IMG/VR virus record: IMGVR_UViG_3300017605_000446
Location: 1 to 43,026 of that record
Direction: 5' to 3' (one strand)
DNA from: a virus
DNA: 43,026 bases
The position numbers and the translations under genes were made by a program. The first letter of the stretch is position 1, and the number at the start of each line of letters is the position of its first letter. Shown here piece after piece: positions 3,451-19,954 of the stretch. Below the pieces are notes generated by a model, which searched no databases, had not been told where the DNA came from, and saw only the letters and a program-made list of their open reading frames with translations.

Positions 3451-4155
3451 CACCGCGAACACGATGCTGCCGATGGTGAGCAGGGTCAGGACGAACCCCG
3501 CGCCGCCGATCACGACGGTCGCGACGAGCCCGATACCAGCGCCCTTGCCGGCCCCTTGCGCGCTAGCCTCCGTCAGCTTCTCCACGGCCGCCGCGAGACG
3601 TGCCGTCTGCGGATCGGCCACCGCCTGCTTGCCTTGCCCCTCGTACTGGAACTTTTCCAGGGCAGCGACCCGCGTCGAGAGTTCCGTGAAGCTGCTGGCT
3701 GTCTGCTTCTGGAGCGCATCGGCCACGTCGGACACCTGCTTCGCCATCGTCGATGCCGTGGTGTTAAGCGCGTTGCGCAGGTTCTCGGCGTCCGTCTTGT
3801 TTGTCGCGGCGAGAGTGTTGATGGCCTGAAGGGCTCGCTCCGATTCCGTCTTGGACGCAGCGACATCGATGCCCCTGACCGCGTCGAGGCGCATCTGCTC
3901 GGCCTTGTGGATCTCTCGGTCGTGCTTCTGGTGCAGCTTCTGGGTGGCCCGCAGGAACTCGGAGCGCAGCCGACTCGATTCCCGTACCGTCTCCAGCTTC
4001 GCATCGATGAGCTTCGTCTGTAGATCCCGAAGGTCGTCCTGCCGCTTCATCGCCGCGGCGAGCTGGTCCCCGACGTTCTTCGTCGGGTCGATAACAGGCC
4101 CACCCGCGAAGTCGACGCCAAGGCCGGAACGTCCGGAAGGTCGCGTGGTTCTCAT
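3439..4155 (-). CDS. long coiled-coil protein with C-terminal membrane segment
   Basis: 238 aa; start ATG at 4155 overlapping the muramidase stop (ATGA). After a short N-terminus, residues about 30-190 are strongly helical and charged with heptad character (LRDLQTKLIDAKLETVRESS and onward), with few Gly or Pro. Residues about 203-236 are hydrophobic (GLVATVVIGGAGFVLTLLTI), enough for one long or two short TM helices, ending at Arg. Tail-anchored coiled-coil proteins beside phage endolysins are often holin- or spanin-like; this one could bring muramidase or lysis factors to the membrane. No family recognised. Confidence 0.72.
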   Translation of the reverse strand: MRTTRPSGRSGLGVDFAGGPVIDPTKNVGDQLAAAMKRQDDLRDLQTKLIDAKLETVRESSRLRSEFLRATQKLHQKHDREIHKAEQMRLDAVRGIDVAASKTESERALQAINTLAATNKTDAENLRNALNTTASTMAKQVSDVADALQKQTASSFTELSTRVAALEKFQYEGQGKQAVADPQTARLAAAVEKLTEASAQGAGKGAGIGLVATVVIGGAGFVLTLLTIGSIVFAVLSR

Positions 4156-4754
4156 GCGAGCTCCGCATAGGCGCGAGCCATGCGACGGTCGTACCCGCTG
4201 GCCGCGAAGTTCGGCCCGTTGTAGTACCTCGCGAACGCCGACCAGCTCAGAGAGCGGATCGCATCGACCAGGCGCCCATCGTTGCGGATGAACAGCACCA
4301 GCGCCCGGAGATGGTCGTCGGCGCTTCGATACATCGCGTTCACGAACCGCTGGAGCTCCGGATAGCCGGCGGCTGTGTGGTTGAGCCCGAGGATCTGGTA
4401 CAGGCCCCACGAGCACGCCTGGAGCGCCGCATCTCGGTCCAGCAGGGCCGCCCGCGCCAGCCGCTCATGCTGCTGCGGGCTCGAGCCGTACGTGCCAGGC
4501 GGCGAGGGCTGGGAGTTCGACAGGTCGGGGGCGTCGTGGTCGAAGCGGCCATCGGTCAGGCGGTGGAAGATGTGACGCTCGAAGAGAATCACCGGCCGGT
4601 CGTCGGGCAGAAAGGCACCCTGCGGGCCGGCCTCCACCTTGGCTATCGCCTTCAAGGCGCGAGGCTCGGCAATCAGGAGCCATGCCGCGGCGGCGTACCC
4701 CTCATCGGTCGGCTGTGCTGTCTTCACGAAGACCGCCCGCAGTAGCCGCACCAT
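4152..4754 (-). CDS. endolysin, N-acetylmuramidase domain (PF11860-type)
   Basis: 200 aa, a single-domain enzyme cutting the glycan MurNAc-GlcNAc bond of peptidoglycan at lysis. Seen: EAGPQGAFLPDD, then ILFERHIFHRLT (E59 is the likely catalytic acid), DLSNSQPSPPGTYG, RLARAALLDRDAALQACSWG with SWGLYQILG around residue 115-123, and RYYNGPNF near the C-terminus; these are the hallmark blocks of this family in the right order. There is no signal peptide, so a holin is needed. The start at 4754 (MVRLLRA) is chosen for its fit to the family; an upstream in-frame start would add 18 atypical residues. It overlaps the zinc-ribbon gene upstream by 31 nt and the coiled-coil gene downstream by 4. Confidence 0.92.
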   Translation of the reverse strand: MVRLLRAVFVKTAQPTDEGYAAAAWLLIAEPRALKAIAKVEAGPQGAFLPDDRPVILFERHIFHRLTDGRFDHDAPDLSNSQPSPPGTYGSSPQQHERLARAALLDRDAALQACSWGLYQILGLNHTAAGYPELQRFVNAMYRSADDHLRALVLFIRNDGRLVDAIRSLSWSAFARYYNGPNFAASGYDRRMARAYAELA

Positions 4755-4951
4755 CGCGAGCCCTCCGCGATGATCCTGTGGACCCAGCCCTTGGGGCATT
4801 TCGTGCACGGCACCGGCTTACATTGCGTGCAGAAGGAACCGCGTTCGTGGAGGAACGTCGGCTGGGAGAACGTGAGGGGCGGGGCATCGGGCTCGCTGCG
4901 TGCAGCGTCGGGAGGCGCACCATGGGGCCTGACGACGCGCGCGGGTGTCAA
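4724..4951 (-). CDS. zinc-ribbon miniprotein
   Basis: 75 aa from a TTG whose TTGA overlaps the preceding stop. The C-terminal half has FCTQCKPVPCTKCPKG followed by WCGYCG: six Cys as three CxxC pairs, which can bind one or two zinc ions. The N-terminal 30 residues are Pro/Ala-rich and probably disordered. The rare TTG start and 31 nt overlap with the muramidase suggest low, coupled expression. Function unknown. Confidence 0.6.
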   Translation of the reverse strand: MTPARVVRPHGAPPDAARSEPDAPPLTFSQPTFLHERGSFCTQCKPVPCTKCPKGWVHRIIAEGSRWCGYCGRSS

Positions 4952-5575: not shown

Positions 5576-6130
5576 CTACGGCTTCTCCGCTCCCGACTCC
5601 GCTCCCCAGTAGGCAGCCCGAGCATTACGATCCGCTTGGATGGCTTCCAGCAGCGCGGCGCGAAGCTCCGGAAACGTCTTGAACTCGCCCACGTTCGGCG
5701 CACCGTCACGGCCACCGTACCGCAAGAAGGCGCCCCAGGCTCCGCCCTCGTCCGGCTCCTCTTCGATGCTCACCGCGAAGTAGGGACGTGTTCCCGGCTC
5801 GCCCGGCCCGAACAGCGTGAGCGAGGGATTGCCCTCCGCGTTCTCGCACAGCCGAGCGGTGTCATAGCGTTCGGCGTGTTCCCACCACGTCAGCTTCTCT
5901 TCAGCCTTCAACGCGCGGGCCTTCCATGCCGCCGTCTGCTTGTCCGACGTGTACAGCAAAGGCTCCTGGATCTCGCGGGCGAAGGCGCGGAGGCGTTTCG
6001 TAAGCGTTAACGTGCCGGGCCACACTACCTCGTCCGGCTCGCCAGGATCGCACATCACGCCCTCTAGCCAGTCCACCTCTGCCTTGATTCGCGCCTCCAG
6101 CTCCGGCGTAAGAGGAGTCTCGGAGGTCAT
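5576..6130 (-). CDS. hypothetical early protein
   Basis: 184 aa, start ATG at 6130 overlapping the upstream stop (ATGA). Acidic N-terminal half with helical character (TPELEARIKAEVDWLEGVM), then a mixed region with WWEHAERYDTARLC and a C-terminal ALLEAIQADRNARAAYWGAE helix. No metal-binding cluster, TM segment or known motif. It is the last gene before the lysis promoter and the end of the early operon. Confidence 0.7.
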   Translation of the reverse strand: MTSETPLTPELEARIKAEVDWLEGVMCDPGEPDEVVWPGTLTLTKRLRAFAREIQEPLLYTSDKQTAAWKARALKAEEKLTWWEHAERYDTARLCENAEGNPSLTLFGPGEPGTRPYFAVSIEEEPDEGGAWGAFLRYGGRDGAPNVGEFKTFPELRAALLEAIQADRNARAAYWGAESGAEKP

Positions 6131-7317
6131 CGGATCACCGTCCCGCACATGGAATGCGGTCCCTTGATTTCGCAGCCGTCAGATCCACGCGAGCATGCCT
6201 CGTTCGCGGGAGCGCAGGACAGGGGGACGCGGAGGGCGGCGAGCACTTCGACTGCATCGGCATGAACAAGACAGGGCGGGCAGCGATTGCCGTCCCTGCA
6301 TACTTCGTCGCCCCAACAATCCAGATGCCCCATAGCCCGTCGCAGCGCCTCCTCCAGCTTCTTCCGCTCCTGGCGGGCCGCCCCGAAGACTGCACGACAG
6401 ATCCTCTCGGGGGAGTCGCGCTTGAAGTCCATAGGGCCGGGCACGTCCCCGTGCTGATTCACCCGGCCGCATTGCATCTCGCCGTCGTCCCCATAGAGCC
6501 CGTCATGCCCGTGGCCGAGCCATAGCGCCTCGCGGAAGAATCTGCTCTCCTTCGTCAGGGACTCCAGCTTGGACTGCAATGCCATGATCCACGCCGCCGG
6601 GTCGTGCGTCTTGCAGTCCTCGCGATGGGCATAACTGTCGCACGCTTCGGTGCAGTCGTCGGCAGACGAGTTGACGGCTGCGCGCAGCAGTTCATGCTTT
6701 TTTGAGAGGGACTCCAGCTTGGACTCCGCAGCGCCGAGTTGCCTGCACGCGATGGCGTTCGATTCGCGCTCAGCAGCCACCGCCGACTCCGCAGCGCGCA
6801 ACCCTGCCTCCGCGTCGTGCATCCGCTTCGTCCAGCCTTCGGGCTGCAAAGCTCCCTTGATCTCGGCCTCCTCCAGGTTCTCGGGCGGGCAGTTGCACAT
6901 GAACTTGTAGCCGCAGCGAGGACATGGCTGGAATCGTCGCGGCTTCTCGCCCTCGGGCTCCCCGCTCACCGGCCCCGCAAGCCACGACACCGGCCCCTCG
7001 CGATGATCCCCACCGTGGCCCTTCAGCAACCGGCAGTGATAAGGAGCCTCAAGGCACGACCGTTCCGACCGCTCGCACATCGCCGAGCACCACTCCACCC
7101 ATTCTTCGGCTGCCGTGACTGGCGGCTCCGGCTCCGGGGTGGGAGGGGGCACCCGATGCTGCCGATCGTTGGCTACGGCAGCGCGGAGGACAGTCACGAT
7201 CCTGCGGGTGGCCTGCTCGCGCTGCTCCCCGCTGGTTGTGAACATGGCCGCGATCTCGTCCGCGAAGTTCTGAAGCGCCCGGTCGGCGGGCTCCGGGGGA
7301 CGCGGGCTATCCGGCAT
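6127..7317 (-). CDS. Cys-rich coiled-coil hypothetical protein
   Basis: 396 aa, start at MPDSPRPPEP (7317). Layout: a Pro-rich N-terminus; WVEWCSAMCERSERSCLEAPYHC; a zinc-ribbon-like FQPCPRCGYKFMCNC (about 138-152); a long coiled coil (about 170-290) with internal KLESLSKKHELL / KLESLTKESRFF repeats; and a C-terminal Cys cluster (CWGDEVCRDGNRCPPC). The KLESL repeat suggests internal duplication. No catalytic motif recognised. Overlaps the next gene by ATGA. A structural or nucleic-acid-binding role is possible but unproven. Confidence 0.72.
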   Translation of the reverse strand: MPDSPRPPEPADRALQNFADEIAAMFTTSGEQREQATRRIVTVLRAAVANDRQHRVPPPTPEPEPPVTAAEEWVEWCSAMCERSERSCLEAPYHCRLLKGHGGDHREGPVSWLAGPVSGEPEGEKPRRFQPCPRCGYKFMCNCPPENLEEAEIKGALQPEGWTKRMHDAEAGLRAAESAVAAERESNAIACRQLGAAESKLESLSKKHELLRAAVNSSADDCTEACDSYAHREDCKTHDPAAWIMALQSKLESLTKESRFFREALWLGHGHDGLYGDDGEMQCGRVNQHGDVPGPMDFKRDSPERICRAVFGAARQERKKLEEALRRAMGHLDCWGDEVCRDGNRCPPCLVHADAVEVLAALRVPLSCAPANEACSRGSDGCEIKGPHSMCGTVIR

Positions 7318-7528
7318 TCGCAAGCTCCTTCTCCCGCGCCTTCCAGCACGCGGCACAGTCGGCTCTGGCTTTGAATCTGCCCTGCTCCACCTCGAACGTG
7401 GAGCCGAGATAGCCCCAACGTCGGCAGAGCGAGCGGCCCTCGCGCATGTAGTGGAACTTGGGCGAGTTCGTCAGGTAGACCCAACCTTCGGTCCTCCCTC
7501 CCCCCGCCTTCTCGGTCAGACGCGCTCA
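7307..7528 (-). pseudogene. small Cys protein with apparent frame break at a C6 tract
   Basis: The ATG at 7528 overlaps the previous stop (ATGA), as expected for a real gene, but its frame soon becomes shadow-like. A frame one base away encodes a natural-looking sequence, GWVYLTNSPKFHYMREGRSL then RWGYLGSTFEVEQG and ADCAACWKAREKELANAG, ending at TAG 7307-7309, 10 nt inside the next gene start. Removing one G from the six-G run (C7500-7505 on the plus strand) joins the two into about 73 aa. This is a sequencing indel, a true frameshift mutation or programmed slippage. An internal ATG at 7447 would give an intact 46 aa product. Confidence 0.55.
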
Positions 7529-8570: not shown

Positions 8571-8742
8571 GCATCACCATGACTCCGAAGAACGGGCCGC
8601 CGAAGTTGGCGAACATGTACCGCCGGGAGAAGAACGGACGCCAGTGAGGCAGGGGCCGATAGAACACCCGCACCACGAAGCCGGGAGGGTAGAACTCCAG
8701 CATCCGGCGCTCCGGATCCGGCCAGCCGTGCAGCAGCCTCAT
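8563..8742 (-). CDS. hypothetical aromatic-rich small protein
   Basis: 59 aa, start at MRLLHGWPDPERR (8742), ATGA overlap with the NinG-like gene. Very rich in Phe, Tyr, Pro and Arg (EFYPPGFVVRVFYRPLPHW), with a short hydrophobic C-terminus (FANFGGPFFGVMVM) that could insert in or lie on a membrane. Unknown function; shorter than 60 codons. Confidence 0.55.
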   Translation of the reverse strand: MRLLHGWPDPERRMLEFYPPGFVVRVFYRPLPHWRPFFSRRYMFANFGGPFFGVMVMRG

Positions 8743-9236
8743 AGCCCGTACTTCTCCGCGTAGAGCATTTCGTACTCCGCGCCGCCCACCTTCAGCGCCG
8801 CAATCAGTTCCTCCAGCTCCGGCGCTCTCCATTGCCGGAACTCCTTCGCCTTCGCATGGAGGCGGTTGAACTCCTCGATTCCATAGCGGTTAATGACCTC
8901 CAGGGCGTAGACCGCGCCATTGCCTCCTAGCCAGCAGTTACAGTGGCCGCACTGGCTGTGGACGTTCTTGGGGTCGTAGCGGACGCTTGGCCTACCATCG
9001 CTGGGGATCATGTGGCCCGCCTGCCAGTTCTTGCCTACAAGGCCAACGGCGGGGCAGGAGATGCAGGCGTCCCCGTCCCTCGCCTTGACGTAGGCGGCGA
9101 ACAGCTTCCACAGCTTCCGCTCCAGGGTCGGTACGCGGTTCTTGCTGGCCCGGCGTGGCCGCTTGGACCTACGCAGAGACCCGGAACGCTTCAGAGGCTT
9201 CGGCGCGCGCACTCGCTTGACGGGCTTGGGGATCAT
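8739..9236 (-). CDS. ninG: NinG/Rap-like recombination protein
   Basis: 165 aa. Basic N-terminus (about 1-40, RVRAPKPLKRSGSLRRSKRP), then LWKLFAAYVKARDGDACISC, WQAGHMIPSDGRPSVRYDPK, NVHSQCGHCNCWLGGNGAVY and LEVINRYGIEEFNRL: the NinG block order with its CxxC / GH / CxxCN metal site, a His-Me-finger-like arrangement. In lambda, NinG (Rap) is a junction-recognising nuclease that aids phage recombination. Here it joins a RecE/RecT pair at 13-14.7 kb, forming a complete phage recombination set. The start at 9236 overlaps the previous gene by 4 nt. Confidence 0.88.
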   Translation of the reverse strand: MIPKPVKRVRAPKPLKRSGSLRRSKRPRRASKNRVPTLERKLWKLFAAYVKARDGDACISCPAVGLVGKNWQAGHMIPSDGRPSVRYDPKNVHSQCGHCNCWLGGNGAVYALEVINRYGIEEFNRLHAKAKEFRQWRAPELEELIAALKVGGAEYEMLYAEKYGL

Positions 9237-12782: not shown

Positions 12783-13006
12783 CAGAACGGGATGTCGTCC
12801 TCGCGGACGTCCTCCGTGTCGAACTCCTCGCATACCAGGGTCACGACGCTGCGCGAGGAAACCGTGCGCACGACGAGGAACCGCTGATCTGGCGTCGCGC
12901 GCGCGAGGCGCTCGGCCTCTTTCTCGGCGGCGTCCAGTGTCAGGTGTTTCGCCGTCGGGTGATTCGACGCCCCGTGCTCGCGGATCACGTAGTAAAAGGG
13001 CTGCAT
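12782..13006 (-). CDS. hypothetical small protein after RecT
   Basis: 74 aa, start MQPFYYVIREHG at 13006, overlapping the RecT-like stop (TGATG). Two-part fold suggested: a beta strand start (FYYVIRE), a helix (LDAAEKEAERLARATPDQRF) and strands (LVVRTVSSRSVVTLVCEEFD), ending acidic (EDVREDDIPF). The acidic DDIPF tail is like the C-terminal tips of SSB-type proteins, but the rest does not look like SSB. Function unknown. Confidence 0.62.
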   Translation of the reverse strand: MQPFYYVIREHGASNHPTAKHLTLDAAEKEAERLARATPDQRFLVVRTVSSRSVVTLVCEEFDTEDVREDDIPF

Positions 13007-13821
13007 CACGCGACCTTCGGGCACGGCTCGGACGGCTTGTGGTCGCCCCCGCACTCGGGGCACGCTGGCGCCACGTCGATAACGGCGGACGCCGCTGGCG
13101 GGGGCTCGGCCAGGAGCGGGTCGGGCGACGTCGGCGGAGGCAGGCTCGCGCGGACGGCCACGTCCTCCCGCGGCGGGTAGTCCTGCGCTTCCTCCGCGAT
13201 CGGGAATCCGCCAAGCACCTCGGACCAGTGGTCCTTCGCGTGGAAGCCCACGGCGCGCCACATGAGCTGCCGGTCGGGGTACGTCACCCACGGCGTCGGC
13301 TCGCCCTTCCGCCCCGTCTTCCCCCAGAGGCCGGCCGTCTTCGCCGCCGCGACGCCGAACTCCGTCCGCTCCTCGCGCGTGGCCCCGACACGGAGCGAGA
13401 CGCAGACGCCCTTCATGGCGTCGCCGGTCCCCTCGGACCAGTGGCGGATGTACTTGCACCGCGGGTCCGCGCGGATGAGGCCGACGGCCGCCTGCCCCCG
13501 CCACGACGTGTTGCCGTTGATGACCACGACGGACTGAAGCGAGTGCATCGGCGTGAGCCCGGCCTCCATGCCCGTCTGGATGGCTAGGGCGACTTGGCCG
13601 ACCGACGTCATCCCCTTCGGGGCCACGGCCCCGGCCAGCGCCGTCTGAGCGAACCGCCAGAGCTCGGCGAACGAGCGAAGCTGGACGCCCCGGTCGGACA
13701 TGACCATCGGCGACTTCCCCTTCGTCTCCACCAGAGCGGGCGGCTCCGCCTTCGCGGCCTCCACCATCGCCGCGGCGTTCGCCTCCTCGGTCACGGTCGC
13801 GTCCGAAACCTCTTCACTCAT
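13006..13821 (-). CDS. recT: RecT-like single-strand annealing protein
   Basis: 271 aa. Core blocks: RSFAELWRFAQTALAGAVAP, SVGQVALAIQTGMEAGLTPM, HSLQSVVVINGNTSWRGQAA, GLIRADPRCKYIRHWSEG, GVAAAKTAGLWGKTGR and PWVTYPDRQLMWRAVGF. These match the RecT family (paired helices, 'G..al.sl..i.vi.G', terminal 'W.typ..m...RA'). It anneals complementary single strands made by the partner exonuclease, driving phage recombination. The C-terminus is Pro-rich and ends in a four-Cys/His knuckle (CPECGGDHKPSEPCP), an optional add-on. Two ATGs overlap the exonuclease stop (13824 and 13821); the second has the better RBS distance. Confidence 0.85.
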   Translation of the reverse strand: MSEEVSDATVTEEANAAAMVEAAKAEPPALVETKGKSPMVMSDRGVQLRSFAELWRFAQTALAGAVAPKGMTSVGQVALAIQTGMEAGLTPMHSLQSVVVINGNTSWRGQAAVGLIRADPRCKYIRHWSEGTGDAMKGVCVSLRVGATREERTEFGVAAAKTAGLWGKTGRKGEPTPWVTYPDRQLMWRAVGFHAKDHWSEVLGGFPIAEEAQDYPPREDVAVRASLPPPTSPDPLLAEPPPAASAVIDVAPACPECGGDHKPSEPCPKVA

Positions 13822-14672
13822 CATTCCCCCTGTGTCGGACGGAAGGCCCACGGCGGCAGGCTCACGTAGTCGATGCCGTCCGGGTAGCCCGGCCAGCGGC
13901 CCGACTTCACGCACTCGGCGTACTCGGTCAGGTGCTTCTGGTAGTCGTCGCGCCCGAGCTGTAGCGCGTCCTCTTCCATCTCGTAGACCGCCGCGCAGTA
14001 CGGCGGCTCCTTCTCGATGGCGATGAAGATGAACTTGCGCTCGTGCGGCGCGAGGGCGTTGAGCCCGTCGAGATACAGCGCCGCCTGCTGGTGGTAATGG
14101 AAGGTGTGGACGTCCTTGGAGAAGGACGAGCGGGCCGCGTTCCGCGTCGTCTTCACGTCCACGATGCACGGCCAGCCCGCCATCGACGTCAGCCGGTCCA
14201 GCCGCGCCTTGACGCGGAGCCCGGTCCCCTCGTCCACCCAGAGCGCGGACACCTCGTTGAGCCCCTGGCCGCGCAGCAGTTCGGCCGCTGTCGGGTGCGC
14301 CCAGACGCCGGCACACATGGCGATGCAGAGGTCGTATTCGTCCTTCGTGATGATGGAGTGTCCGCCGTGCTCGGCCTGGAACTCCTGCCACTCCAGCTTC
14401 CCGGCCGTCGTCCGCTTGTCGATCTTCGGCGCCGCCACGAACTCGGCCTCGAACCGGGCGGGCTCGAGGATGGCGACGTGCGCGGCCCACCCGAGGGCCT
14501 GGGCCTCCGTCTGGTCGGCGGGGCTCACGATGGCCTCGCGCGCGTGGGCCGCTGTCCGGTTGAAGAACCGGAGCTTCGAGTGATTGATGGCGTCCCACCG
14601 CGCGTACGTGTCGTATGGCACGTTCCGGTGCAGGCCGACCGAAACGGAAGGCACGACCACTTCGGCGCTCAT
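13821..14672 (-). CDS. RecE/YqaJ-like exonuclease (PD-(D/E)XK)
   Basis: 283 aa. Motifs in order: GWAAHVAILEPARFEAEFV (G..H..ILEP with H65), E140, RVKARLDRL (D159), CIVDVKTTRNAA (D172, K174: DxK), and HTFHYHQQAALYLDGL (QxxxY around Q195-Y200). This is the catalytic order of RecE/exodeoxyribonuclease VIII, which resects double-strand ends 5' to 3' for the annealing partner RecT directly downstream. The start ATG at 14672 has GGGAGGG 7 nt upstream; the ATG at 14678 is too close to that RBS. Confidence 0.88.
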   Translation of the reverse strand: MSAEVVVPSVSVGLHRNVPYDTYARWDAINHSKLRFFNRTAAHAREAIVSPADQTEAQALGWAAHVAILEPARFEAEFVAAPKIDKRTTAGKLEWQEFQAEHGGHSIITKDEYDLCIAMCAGVWAHPTAAELLRGQGLNEVSALWVDEGTGLRVKARLDRLTSMAGWPCIVDVKTTRNAARSSFSKDVHTFHYHQQAALYLDGLNALAPHERKFIFIAIEKEPPYCAAVYEMEEDALQLGRDDYQKHLTEYAECVKSGRWPGYPDGIDYVSLPPWAFRPTQGE

Positions 14673-14842
14673 CGGCATCCCTCCCGGTTACACTGACCGT
14701 CCTCGTCCAGCGGCAGGCCGCAGCCGGGGCAGAGCTGCTTCGCGAGCCGCGCCATAGCCTCGTCCGTCTTGCGTACCGTCTCTCCCGTCACCGGGAAGTT
14801 GTGGAGGCCGGGCAGGCTGTAGAACCAGGCGCGCGCGTTCAC
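14669..14842 (-). CDS. zinc-ribbon miniprotein
   Basis: 57 aa from GTG 14842 (GTGA overlap), below common length cutoffs. C-terminal LCPGCGLPLDEDGQCNREGC has four Cys (CxxC...CxxxxC), a compact zinc knuckle; the N-terminal half is helical (FYSLPGLHNFPVTGETVRK). The stop overlaps the exonuclease start. Function unknown. Confidence 0.58.
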   Translation of the reverse strand: MNARAWFYSLPGLHNFPVTGETVRKTDEAMARLAKQLCPGCGLPLDEDGQCNREGCR

Positions 14843-17507: not shown

Positions 17508-17714
17508 ATGCCGATAGAGGAAAGGTCCGGCCTTTGCGGCTACTGCAGGCGCCCCGTTCTAGGTCGCCGGGAAGGGGTGAACCACGTACTGCACGCCATC
17601 ATCAGCATATTCTCATGCGGGCTCTGGTTGCTCGTGTGGCTGCTCATCGTGGTGACTTCGGGGAGCGCGGAGTATGCCTGTCCTACGTGCGGGGGGAAGG
17701 TGACGACGACATGA
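17508..17714 (+). CDS. small membrane protein with a zinc ribbon split by TM
   Basis: 68 aa; AGGAAA 8-9 nt before the ATG. LCGYCRRPVLGRREGVNH, a TM segment (about 29-52, AIISIFSCGLWLLVWLLIVV), then YACPTCGGKV. Two CxxC pairs flank the membrane helix, an arrangement I know from many small prokaryotic and phage proteins of unknown function. Same strand as the repressor and possibly expressed with it in the lysogen, a candidate superinfection-exclusion or conversion gene. It overlaps the 3' end of the opposite-strand gene by 32 nt. Confidence 0.78.
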   Translation: MPIEERSGLCGYCRRPVLGRREGVNHVLHAIISIFSCGLWLLVWLLIVVTSGSAEYACPTCGGKVTTT

Positions 17715-17955
17715 GCAGGGTGCGCGCCTCCAGCAGCAGGCCCTCCAGGTCCGCATCCAGTTGCGTGCCGTCGTGCCGCCGCTGGAATGCCACCCGCACG
17801 ACTTCGAGGGCGAACCTGCGCGCACTGAAGACTTCCTCGGCCAGCCGCAGCGCCGTCTCGGCTCTGACATAGGGACGCCCAGGCTCGCTTCGCACTTCGG
17901 CGCGGAGGTCCACGAGCAGCACGGCGAGTTCGTCGGACGTCAGCGGCACCGTCAT
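17683..17955 (-). CDS. hypothetical protein, third gene after the integrase
   Basis: 90 aa, start MTVPLTSDELAVLL at 17955, with GAGGGG 6 nt plus GAAGGC upstream, the same junction layout as the two genes before it. Helical (VLLVDLRAEVRSEPGRP, RLAEEVFSARRFALEVVRVA). No known domain. It ends over the tail of the plus-strand membrane gene. Confidence 0.65.
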   Translation of the reverse strand: MTVPLTSDELAVLLVDLRAEVRSEPGRPYVRAETALRLAEEVFSARRFALEVVRVAFQRRHDGTQLDADLEGLLLEARTLLMSSSPSPRT

Positions 17956-18131
17956 GCCTTCCCCCTCAGTACGTCCAGCTTCGACGGCGCCACCATCACC
18001 ATCGCCCAGACGATCACGCACACCTCACAAAGAGGTACGTCGATGCCGTGCGGCCGTTCCACCGTGACGGGTCGGCCGGAGCACTCGAAGGCCGGGTGCT
18101 CACACGTCCGCTCTGCGCAGCCGCAATTCAT
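17952..18131 (-). CDS. Cys-rich 59-aa protein with integrase-like tail
   Basis: 59 aa (just below a 60-codon cutoff), ATG 18131 (ATGA overlap). MNCGCAERTCEHPAFECSGR carries a Cys-rich start (four Cys before residue 20), then PLCEVCVIVWAMVMV, another CxxC at the start of a short hydrophobic stretch. The last residues SKLDVLRGKA repeat the tails of the two preceding genes (LTKLDSLRSKA and LTKLDSLRSKP). Reading frame, start and RBS all fit a real gene. Confidence 0.65.
   Translation of the reverse strand: MNCGCAERTCEHPAFECSGRPVTVERPHGIDVPLCEVCVIVWAMVMVAPSKLDVLRGKA
17957..17986 (-). repeat. degenerate third copy of the gene-junction repeat
   Basis: About 20 of 30 positions match the exact 30 bp pair at 18134 and 18469. 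It encodes the SKLDVLRGK tail, the SD-like GAGGGG and ends 6 nt before ATG 17955. Confidence 0.5.
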
Positions 18132-18466
18132 GCCTTGCTCCTCAAGCTATCCAGCTTCGTCAGGTCCGGCATCGTCTCCGTGACCGGGAATGGCGGCTCG
18201 GGCGGGTACAGAAAACGCCAGTGCGTGACGCGCTCATCGTCGGCATCGAGCCATAGGCCGTGTGCATCCATCCATCCCGGCGCGTGCATTTGTGGACCGA
18301 GTCCACGGTCCACGCTCGCCCCCGGGCCAATCCAGCGCGCTACGATCACCATGCCGTAACCGTCGTCGTCGTTCCCGAGCGCGGGTAGATAGGCCCACAC
18401 GGGCCCGTTGTGGTTCGGCGGCCGGTCATCCGGATATCGGTACCACTCGTCTCCTGACTCGATCAC
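18128..18466 (-). CDS. hypothetical protein, second gene of the integrase-tail series
   Basis: 112 aa from GTG 18466 (GTGA overlap with the integrase stop). WYRYPDDRPPNHNGPVWAYL, VIVARWIGPGASVDRGLG, GLWLDADDERVTHWRFLYPP: an aromatic-rich small beta/alpha protein of a type common as phage DUF proteins ('..VthW...p.PP'). The final ten residues, TKLDSLRSKA, are a copy of the integrase C-terminus, encoded by an exact 30 bp repeat. Function unknown. Confidence 0.7.
   Translation of the reverse strand: MIESGDEWYRYPDDRPPNHNGPVWAYLPALGNDDDGYGMVIVARWIGPGASVDRGLGPQMHAPGWMDAHGLWLDADDERVTHWRFLYPPEPPFPVTETMPDLTKLDSLRSKA
18134..18163 (-). repeat. 30 bp direct repeat, copy 1 (gene-junction cassette end)
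   Basis: Identical to 18469-18498. Read on the minus strand it encodes LTKLDSLRSK at the end of a gene and contains GAGGAG, placed 6 nt before the next start codon. Spacing between copies is 335 bp, exactly one gene. Confidence 0.9.
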
Positions 18467-19551
18467 GGCTTGCTCCTCAAGCTATCCAGCTTCGTCAGCC
18501 CCTCCGCGATCATCTTCTCGTCGACGATCGCGTACCGCTTGAACACGCTGGCCGTCTTCCATCCCCCGATGGCCATGGCCACCGACTGCGAGATCCCGGC
18601 CCGGATCATGTTCCTCGCCGCGCTCCGCCGCATGTCGTGGACGAGCCGCCCCGGCAGTCCAGCCCGCTTGCACGCCCCCGCCCAGGCCCCGAGGAACGCC
18701 AGCACGGGACGCCCGCCACGATGGAACACCCACGGCACGATCCGCCCCTCTCGCTTCTCCAGGCTGTCCGTGTTCGTGCGCTGCACCTCGATCACTTCCT
18801 TCAGCGCCGGCAGCGCCGCATACGGGATAGTACGCGCCTCGTCGTTCTTCGATTCCTCGATCCGGATGACACCCGCCCTCATGTCCACCATGCGCCACTG
18901 CAGCGACGTGGCCTCTGTCTTCCGCCAGCCCGTCCAGTACAGGAACGTCACCAGCGGCTGCAGGTCCGTGGGCAGCTTCAGCATGATGGCCCGGAACTGC
19001 TCCGGCTCGAGGAACCCGGCCCGCGGCCTGTCCTCCCTGAGCAGGGAGAACGACGGCAGCACGGACAGCCTACCAAGGGCCACGGCCAGCCTGAGCCCGC
19101 GGCGGAGCTGGGCAAGCTCCCGGTTGATGGTCCCGTTCCGCACGCCCTCACTTCTCCGCGCGGCCTTGTACGAGGCGATGGAGGAAGCCGACACCATGCG
19201 CGCGATGGGCCCATCCCCGAAATGCTGCTTCAGGTGCTGGAAGGCGCCCGTGACGTTGCGGCTGCTGCGCCGCTTGTTCTCCACGTAGTCGTTCGCCACC
19301 AGGTGCTCGAGGTCGTCGATGGTCGTCTTCTGCGTGGCTGGGTCACGGGCTTCGCCGCGGTCGGCCGCCGCCACGCGCGCGCGCAGCAGCTTCTCGGCCT
19401 CGCTCTTGATGGTCGTCTCGGAGGACTCGCGGATGCGCCGTCGTGCCCCGCGCGGGCCCACGCGGTAGGAGATCCACCACACGGCCTGCTCCACGCCGTT
19501 CGTCTTGGGGCGCCATACGGTGCCCGCTCCGTGCGGCCGTCGCTTCGTCAC
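18463..19551 (-). CDS. int: tyrosine recombinase integrase
   Basis: 362 aa. N-terminal AP2-like strand region (GAGTVWRPKTNGVEQAVWWI), core-binding helices (about 75-165), and a catalytic domain with TGWRKTEATSLQW (R210), EESKNDEARTIP (K235), VHDMRRSAARNM (H305, R308), GGWKTASVF (W331) and nucleophile Y340 in FKRYAIV. All six catalytic positions are present, so the enzyme should be active: it inserts the phage at a host tRNA 3' end and excises it. It starts at GTG 19551 (GTGA). It ends LTKLDSLRSKP, a tail copied on the next two genes. Confidence 0.95.
   Translation of the reverse strand: MTKRRPHGAGTVWRPKTNGVEQAVWWISYRVGPRGARRRIRESSETTIKSEAEKLLRARVAAADRGEARDPATQKTTIDDLEHLVANDYVENKRRSSRNVTGAFQHLKQHFGDGPIARMVSASSIASYKAARRSEGVRNGTINRELAQLRRGLRLAVALGRLSVLPSFSLLREDRPRAGFLEPEQFRAIMLKLPTDLQPLVTFLYWTGWRKTEATSLQWRMVDMRAGVIRIEESKNDEARTIPYAALPALKEVIEVQRTNTDSLEKREGRIVPWVFHRGGRPVLAFLGAWAGACKRAGLPGRLVHDMRRSAARNMIRAGISQSVAMAIGGWKTASVFKRYAIVDEKMIAEGLTKLDSLRSKP
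18469..18498 (-). repeat. 30 bp direct repeat, copy 2 (integrase 3' end)
   Basis: Exact copy of 18134-18163. It forms the last ten integrase codons and the RBS of the following gene, so it is probably the ancestral copy: the sequence fits the natural C-terminal helix of integrases. Confidence 0.9.
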
Positions 19552-19847
19552 GGCTTCTCGTTGAGTGTGCGCTCGACGGCGTCGAAGTTCTTCGTCGCTA
19601 CATCGACCGCCCGCGCCATTCCCGTGCGCGCTCGCTCGATGCGCTCCTGCGCGGCCGCGCGCACCTTCGGGTCTGCTGAGGCGAGCGCCTCCCAGATGTG
19701 CCGCGGGATTCCCAATGGGGCGCGGATGCGCCGCAACTCAGCCACAGCTTGGAGGATCAGGCCGCCGAAACCGCGCGCGGCGCCGCCCTTGGCGTGCTCT
19801 TCCAATTCGGCCAATTCCTCGTCCGTCAACGGCTTCTCGTAGTCCAT
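19548..19847 (-). CDS. hypothetical helical protein before the integrase
   Basis: 99 aa, ATG 19847 with GGAGG 6 nt upstream. Helical and charged (LTDEELAELEEHAKGGAARG, ILQAVAELRRIRAPLG, ADPKVRAAAQERIERARTGM). It may be a recombination directionality or integrase-accessory factor by position, but no motif supports this. It overlaps the integrase start by GTGA. Confidence 0.66.
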   Translation of the reverse strand: MDYEKPLTDEELAELEEHAKGGAARGFGGLILQAVAELRRIRAPLGIPRHIWEALASADPKVRAAAQERIERARTGMARAVDVATKNFDAVERTLNEKP

Positions 19848-19909: not shown

Positions 19910-19954
19910 TGGTGCTGGTGGAAGGATTTGAACCTTCACTATGCCGATTTTAAG
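19910..19954 (-). other. attP: attP core: 3' half of a tRNA gene
   Basis: On the minus strand: CTTAAAA (anticodon-loop-like), TCGGC, ATAGT, then a T-arm GAAGG-TTCAAAT-CCTTC, an acceptor strand CACCAGC, A and CCA. There is no matching 5' half, so this is not a tRNA gene but a copy of the host tRNA 3' end that restores the gene on integration. It lies 63 nt before the gene preceding the integrase. The anticodon loop reads UAA (Leu), but the variable region looks short for Leu, so the identity is open. The rest of 19848-20138 has no gene. Confidence 0.85.

Follow-up and report, generated by a model that had tools for sequence, protein, structure and literature searches.

The last 36 bp of the integrase gene in the phage genome analyzed here recur at the ends of the two genes that follow it, and these two small genes were probably added behind the integrase through homologous recombination at a boundary sequence, located at gene ends, that brings its own coupling signal. 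The locus is most likely a new and clean example of a process already known (the Island3 type, described below), with an ordinary mechanism that is unusually clear here and with three copies of the junction. The window is the whole of IMG/VR record IMGVR_UViG_3300017605_000446 (43,026 bp), a single metagenomic record, and its ORFs were called mechanically. Five genes on the minus strand lie in the order 99 aa, int (362 aa), 112 aa, 59 aa and 90 aa. NTGA stop/start overlaps are found at the four successive junctions of this run, and a clear Shine-Dalgarno (SD) sequence is present at the three repeat junctions. The features of the locus are as follows.

19548..19847, minus strand: 99-aa gene upstream of int; its end has only AAGCCGTGA in common with copy 1
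18463..19551, minus strand: tyrosine integrase gene int, 362 aa, GTG start, tail LTKLDSLRSKP
18463..18498, minus strand: junction copy 1, int tail with GAGGAG and GTGA overlap
18128..18466, minus strand: 112-aa gene, orphan, ends LTKLDSLRSKA
18128..18163, minus strand: junction copy 2, 30 bp identical to copy 1, ATGA overlap
17952..18131, minus strand: 59-aa gene, orphan, Cys-rich N-terminal part, ends SKLDVLRGKA
17952..17987, minus strand: junction copy 3, diverged (27/36 to copy 2), GAGGGG and ATGA overlap
17683..17955, minus strand: 90-aa gene, started by copy 3, itself without the tail

The int product matches the profiles of Pfam Phage_integrase (2.8e-19) and the PHROG integrase (1.1e-42). 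Neither the 112-aa nor the 59-aa gene matches an integrase family, and the tail is the only thing that they have in common with int; the 112-aa product shows at most a faint, non-significant resemblance to DUF551 (Pfam, E 0.61). The nine bases AAGCCGTGA end both the 99-aa gene (19548–19556) and int (18463–18471), a match that may be due to chance or may be a trace of the same process. A small plus-strand gene at 17508–17714, which converges on the last gene of the int operon, encodes a LITAF-like zinc ribbon according to a weak Pfam match (6e-4) below the cut-off.

The segments 18134–18163 and 18469–18498 are identical over 30 bp on the minus strand. With the four-base overlaps included, the 36-mers at 18128–18163 and 18463–18498 agree at 34/36 positions, and the third copy (17952–17987) agrees with copies 2 and 1 at 27/36 and 25/36, respectively, which confirms the exact repeat with a diverged third copy that had been described in the first-pass annotation. 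The ORF translations bear out the three related protein ends, with all copies in the same reading frame, and GAGGAG, GAGGAG and GAGGGG lie six bases upstream of the next start in copies 1, 2 and 3, as had also been described. Copies 1 and 2 differ in the last two codons before the stop/start (CCGTGA versus GGCATGA). No exact direct repeat in the window is longer than this 30-bp one, and the runner-up is 19 bp; the longest in 20 simulated sequences did not exceed 19 bp, and shuffled controls gave no match to the repeat with three mismatches allowed. The two copies of the 19-bp repeat (AGGGACTCCAGCTTGGACT; 6557–6575 and 6707–6725, 150 bp apart) both lie within the minus-strand ORF 6127–7356. Misassembly is an unlikely cause of the 30-bp repeat, which is shorter than usual reads.

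Since an SD sequence and a stop/start overlap make all such junctions somewhat alike, control pairs were restricted to those with both features. The control set comprises 1,974 same-strand ORF-end pairs with SD and NTGA from fetched loci, which lie near related integrases and terminases or in a few reference phages and are not a random phage sample. The three pairs of the locus (34, 27 and 25 of 36) rank 1, 2 and 4 among the 1,974 pairs, for which the mode is 14, and only one non-locus pair reaches at least 25 (26/36, in contig L141). Adjacent, unrelated genes thus have a common 3′ end at the DNA level above chance (34/36 and 27/36, controls at most 26). The ranks also indicate that SD and stop/start alone are insufficient even for copy 3, and the third, diverged copy is probably real too. 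A high-scoring pair in another contig (L049) was set aside, as its two ORF ends lie ~1.7 kb apart and do not belong to successive genes. A mirror case, in which gene starts and not ends are shared, is found upstream of another integrase at positions 4130–4937 of IMGVR_UViG_3300036861_000887 (L096), where three successive small genes begin with VETPQQV, MDTPQQQV and MDTPQQQV and the last two match over 25 bp at 96%.

The origin of the tail was traced in ~120 fetched loci with related integrases, among which 81 C-termini were readable. In 38 of the 81, [KR][LIVM] is spaced from the catalytic Tyr as KL is in int. Close matches among the homologue tails include LREAAGKLDSYL, and YAIVDEAMLREGAEKLAAFHSLRK (L005) and YNIVSESDLREAAGKLDSYLNQRY (L045) are also near the tail of int. 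Because homologous integrases carry equivalent tails, int is the likely source and native owner of the tail, of which the 112-aa and 59-aa genes would carry copies; the earlier suggestion of the integrase as the source is thereby strengthened. None of the ~100 homologous integrases with enough downstream sequence repeats its own tail downstream; the best downstream match to the own end is 22/30, and the upstream and reverse-strand controls reach 23 and 21. As judged from these homologues, the tail duplication is therefore a lineage-specific gain, particular to this phage lineage.

The window also contains three genes with profile matches to recombination functions.

13821..14678, minus strand: RecE/exonuclease VIII-like gene (PHROG 2e-78)
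13006..13824, minus strand: RecT-like annealing protein gene (PHROG RecT-like 6.3e-18)
8739..9236, minus strand: NinG/Rap-like gene (Pfam NinG 4.9e-22, PHROG 2.3e-23)

The RecE-like product also matches the NCBIfam exodeoxyribonuclease VIII model (1.6e-39, under the model's cut-off), and the RecT assignment of 13006..13824 follows from profile scores. Rad52-like recombinases of phages promote exchange between short homologous stretches, and the minimal pairing length is 23–27 bp for Red-beta and 31–34 bp for RecA (PMC3945230). A repeat of 30 bp exceeds the former range and fits the predicted RecE-like and RecT-like system of this phage. A virtual exchange that joins copy 1 to copy 2 removes exactly the 112-aa gene and brings int next to the 59-aa gene, whose SD and ATGA start are retained.

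We propose that the last 36 bp of int may function as a portable gene junction, which combines the int C-terminus, the SD sequence of the next gene and the four-base stop/start overlap. The two small genes would have been added behind int at this junction, each bringing or gaining a copy at its own 3′ end. Insertion of a gene that carries one copy, the reverse of the virtual exchange, would produce the present structure. After each insertion, int would remain whole, the new gene would have a ribosome site and the gene behind would keep its own. Translation along the run may be coupled. The diverged copy 3 would represent an older event and the identical copy 2 a younger one. The likely enzymes would be the phage's own RecE/RecT-type exonuclease and annealing protein, which may have acted between phage genomes or on a short circle.

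This arrangement has a precedent in mycobacteriophage subcluster I1. Gene 68 of Island3 is an orphan, the C-terminal 18 residues and DNA of which repeat those of gene 67, while Brujita has no gene 68 and carries a single, recombinant copy; the published interpretation is recombination between the copies, which is compared there with the boundary sequences of lambdoid phages (PMC3029335). From the sequence records, we reproduced both the agreement of the last 36 bp of Island3 genes 67 and 68 (34/36) and the hybrid make-up of Brujita gene 66, the left part of which matches gene 67 and the right part gene 68. As in the present locus, an orphan small gene repeats the 3′ end of the preceding gene in frame, start and stop codons overlap, and gene gain or loss is explained by recombination between copies. 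Island3 and Brujita differ from this locus in that they offer two copies and a known plus/minus pair, whereas three copies lie behind int here and no such pair is known.

Lambdoid phages provide a looser parallel. Their boundary sequences, according to the works that PMC3029335 cites for them (Clark et al. 2001; Susskind and Botstein 1978), and the chain of ATGA-linked nin genes in lambda (PMC8022706) resemble this locus in the tightly packed small genes, the ATGA links, the ribosome site inside the preceding gene and the proposal that junction sequences are points of recombination. Overlapping stop and start codons with the SD sequence inside the preceding gene are likewise found here. However, what the lambda nin junctions have in common is limited to a short SD/GCATGA stretch (at most 17/36) and includes no protein tail, in contrast to 34/36 here. 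No comparable ORF-end pair was found in the lambda nin region, P22, HK97, TM4, Mx8 or phiC31, where the maxima are 19–24/36, apart from one phiC31 pair at 26 that lies on the strand opposite to the annotated genes there. The start-associated sequences of cluster K mycobacteriophages reportedly precede gene starts and are thought to be regulatory. They are similar to this repeat in that a short sequence recurs ahead of several genes, but the repeat here is coding and forms the tail of the preceding gene.

The first-pass annotation had read the unit of start, gene and tail as a cassette inserted repeatedly by recombination at a junction sequence, with the newest copy identical. Insertion at the junction is favored by the small genes, which share only the tail, and by the Island3/Brujita precedent, but no relative was seen to have gained or lost one gene together with one repeat copy, as queries with int and with the 112-aa and 59-aa genes returned no relative carrying this region. 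The int relatives are at most 44% identical, the tail protein as a query returned no relatives, and the repeat core is absent from all other viral contigs searched. A close relative of this phage does exist, as judged by a 93% identical TerL match in IMGVR_UViG_3300036853_000045 (L124), a 5.4-kb viral contig without int. The direction of the earlier interpretation is largely right and, with no relative carrying the 112-aa, 59-aa and int region, it is unproven for this phage, as are the direction and timing of insertion with no relative found to have fewer or more units. That insertion occurred repeatedly and that the identical copy is the newest are points that we infer; gene conversion could also hold two copies identical. 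The different last two codons of copies 1 and 2 also count against insertion. Insertion of a gene with one copy would itself leave such different ends, since the start of the 112-aa gene accounts for CCGTGA and the start of the 59-aa gene for GGCATGA. Such boundary sequences are missing from most phage mosaic joints (PMC3029335), and an illegitimate join with later gene conversion is therefore a possibility.

A rival explanation places the whole process within this genome, where the int 3′ end would have been partly duplicated, or copied by replication slippage or template switching, and so added as a tail to genes already present and gene conversion would have kept copies 1 and 2 alike. No donor phage is required, conversion can maintain equal DNA, and nothing marks the 112-aa and 59-aa genes, both orphans, as recent. 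The exact stop/start joint must nevertheless be struck twice, and the Island3/Brujita pair shows instead that a whole gene with its tail is gained or lost; we consider this origin unlikely.

The similar peptide in the same frame of all three proteins could also represent a functional tag, such as a binding or turnover signal, under selection in three proteins of one operon. Protein selection alone does not need the identity of copies 1 and 2 at all 30 bases, including third positions, and in copy 3 one S has become V and another G. This integrase family, moreover, ordinarily ends in such a tail, and selection for a tag is a very unlikely source of the repeats.

Integron cassette arrays contain a tyrosine recombinase gene beside small genes that are separated by repeats, and this locus is alike in that a tyrosine recombinase gene adjoins small genes with repeats between. 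The repeat, which borders int and holds a small inverted repeat (AAGCT-GGAT-AGCTT) in copies 1 and 2, might thus be an integrase recombination site and the 335-bp unit an integron-like gene cassette. A typical attachment core is located on the other side of the operon.

19910–19954, minus strand: probable attP core, 3′ half of tRNA-Leu(UAA), CTTAAAATCGGCATAGTGAAGGTTCAAATCCTTCCACCAGCACCA, from alignment with tRNA-Leu(taa) genes

This segment aligns with the tRNA-Leu(taa) 3′ halves of genomes from the phylum of a Rokubacteria MAG (L006). It lies outside the repeated units, past the int end that faces away from them and 5′ of the operon. The alignment places a tRNA 3′ end near int, as in tRNA-targeting temperate phages, and the segment is probably the attP core. 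A search for attB with the core found none in 19 genomes and none in viral contigs. The closest tRNAs seen are from this phylum, in which 5 of 95 genomes have similar tRNA-Leu 3′ ends with two mismatches in 25 bp; this gives only a hint of a host from the group. Given the tRNA-Leu(UAA) fragment beyond the other end, the 30-bp repeat is unlikely to be the phage attachment site. Copy 3 no longer has the inverted repeat, which is therefore not conserved across all copies, and the three junction copies have no common RNA fold (folding z-scores -1.3, -0.3 and -2.2, with different structures). Unlike integron arrays, the locus shows no attC-like structure and its repeat lies within coding tails. No such repeats occur at homologous integrases, and the weak matches to integron integrase models are far below the cut-offs. 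The tRNA core outside the units, the loss of the inverted repeat and the absence of a common fold render an integron-like role highly improbable, and the term cassette, with the likely attachment site elsewhere, is unlikely to apply in that sense. Chance combined with the SD and NTGA that every junction needs has a negligible probability, as the 1,974 matched controls reach 26/36 at best against 34/36 and 27/36, and for copies 1 and 2 it is refuted.

The proposed addition of genes by homologous recombination at the int junction bears on how phages gain single small genes without breaking packed operons, which has so far mostly been inferred. Three junction copies, two alike and one diverged, beside int in a phage with its own predicted annealing recombinase provide a tidy, testable case, in which the repeat is predicted to have barely the length that the phage enzyme requires and the expected recombination product is detectable in principle by PCR or in metagenome reads. 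As every insertion would regenerate the junction, the int tail might, tentatively and with rather low probability, even be a reusable landing pad at which genes are taken in serially through the RecET-type system of the phage. If so, an array could grow in an integron-like manner by short-homology annealing, with no site-specific recombinase.
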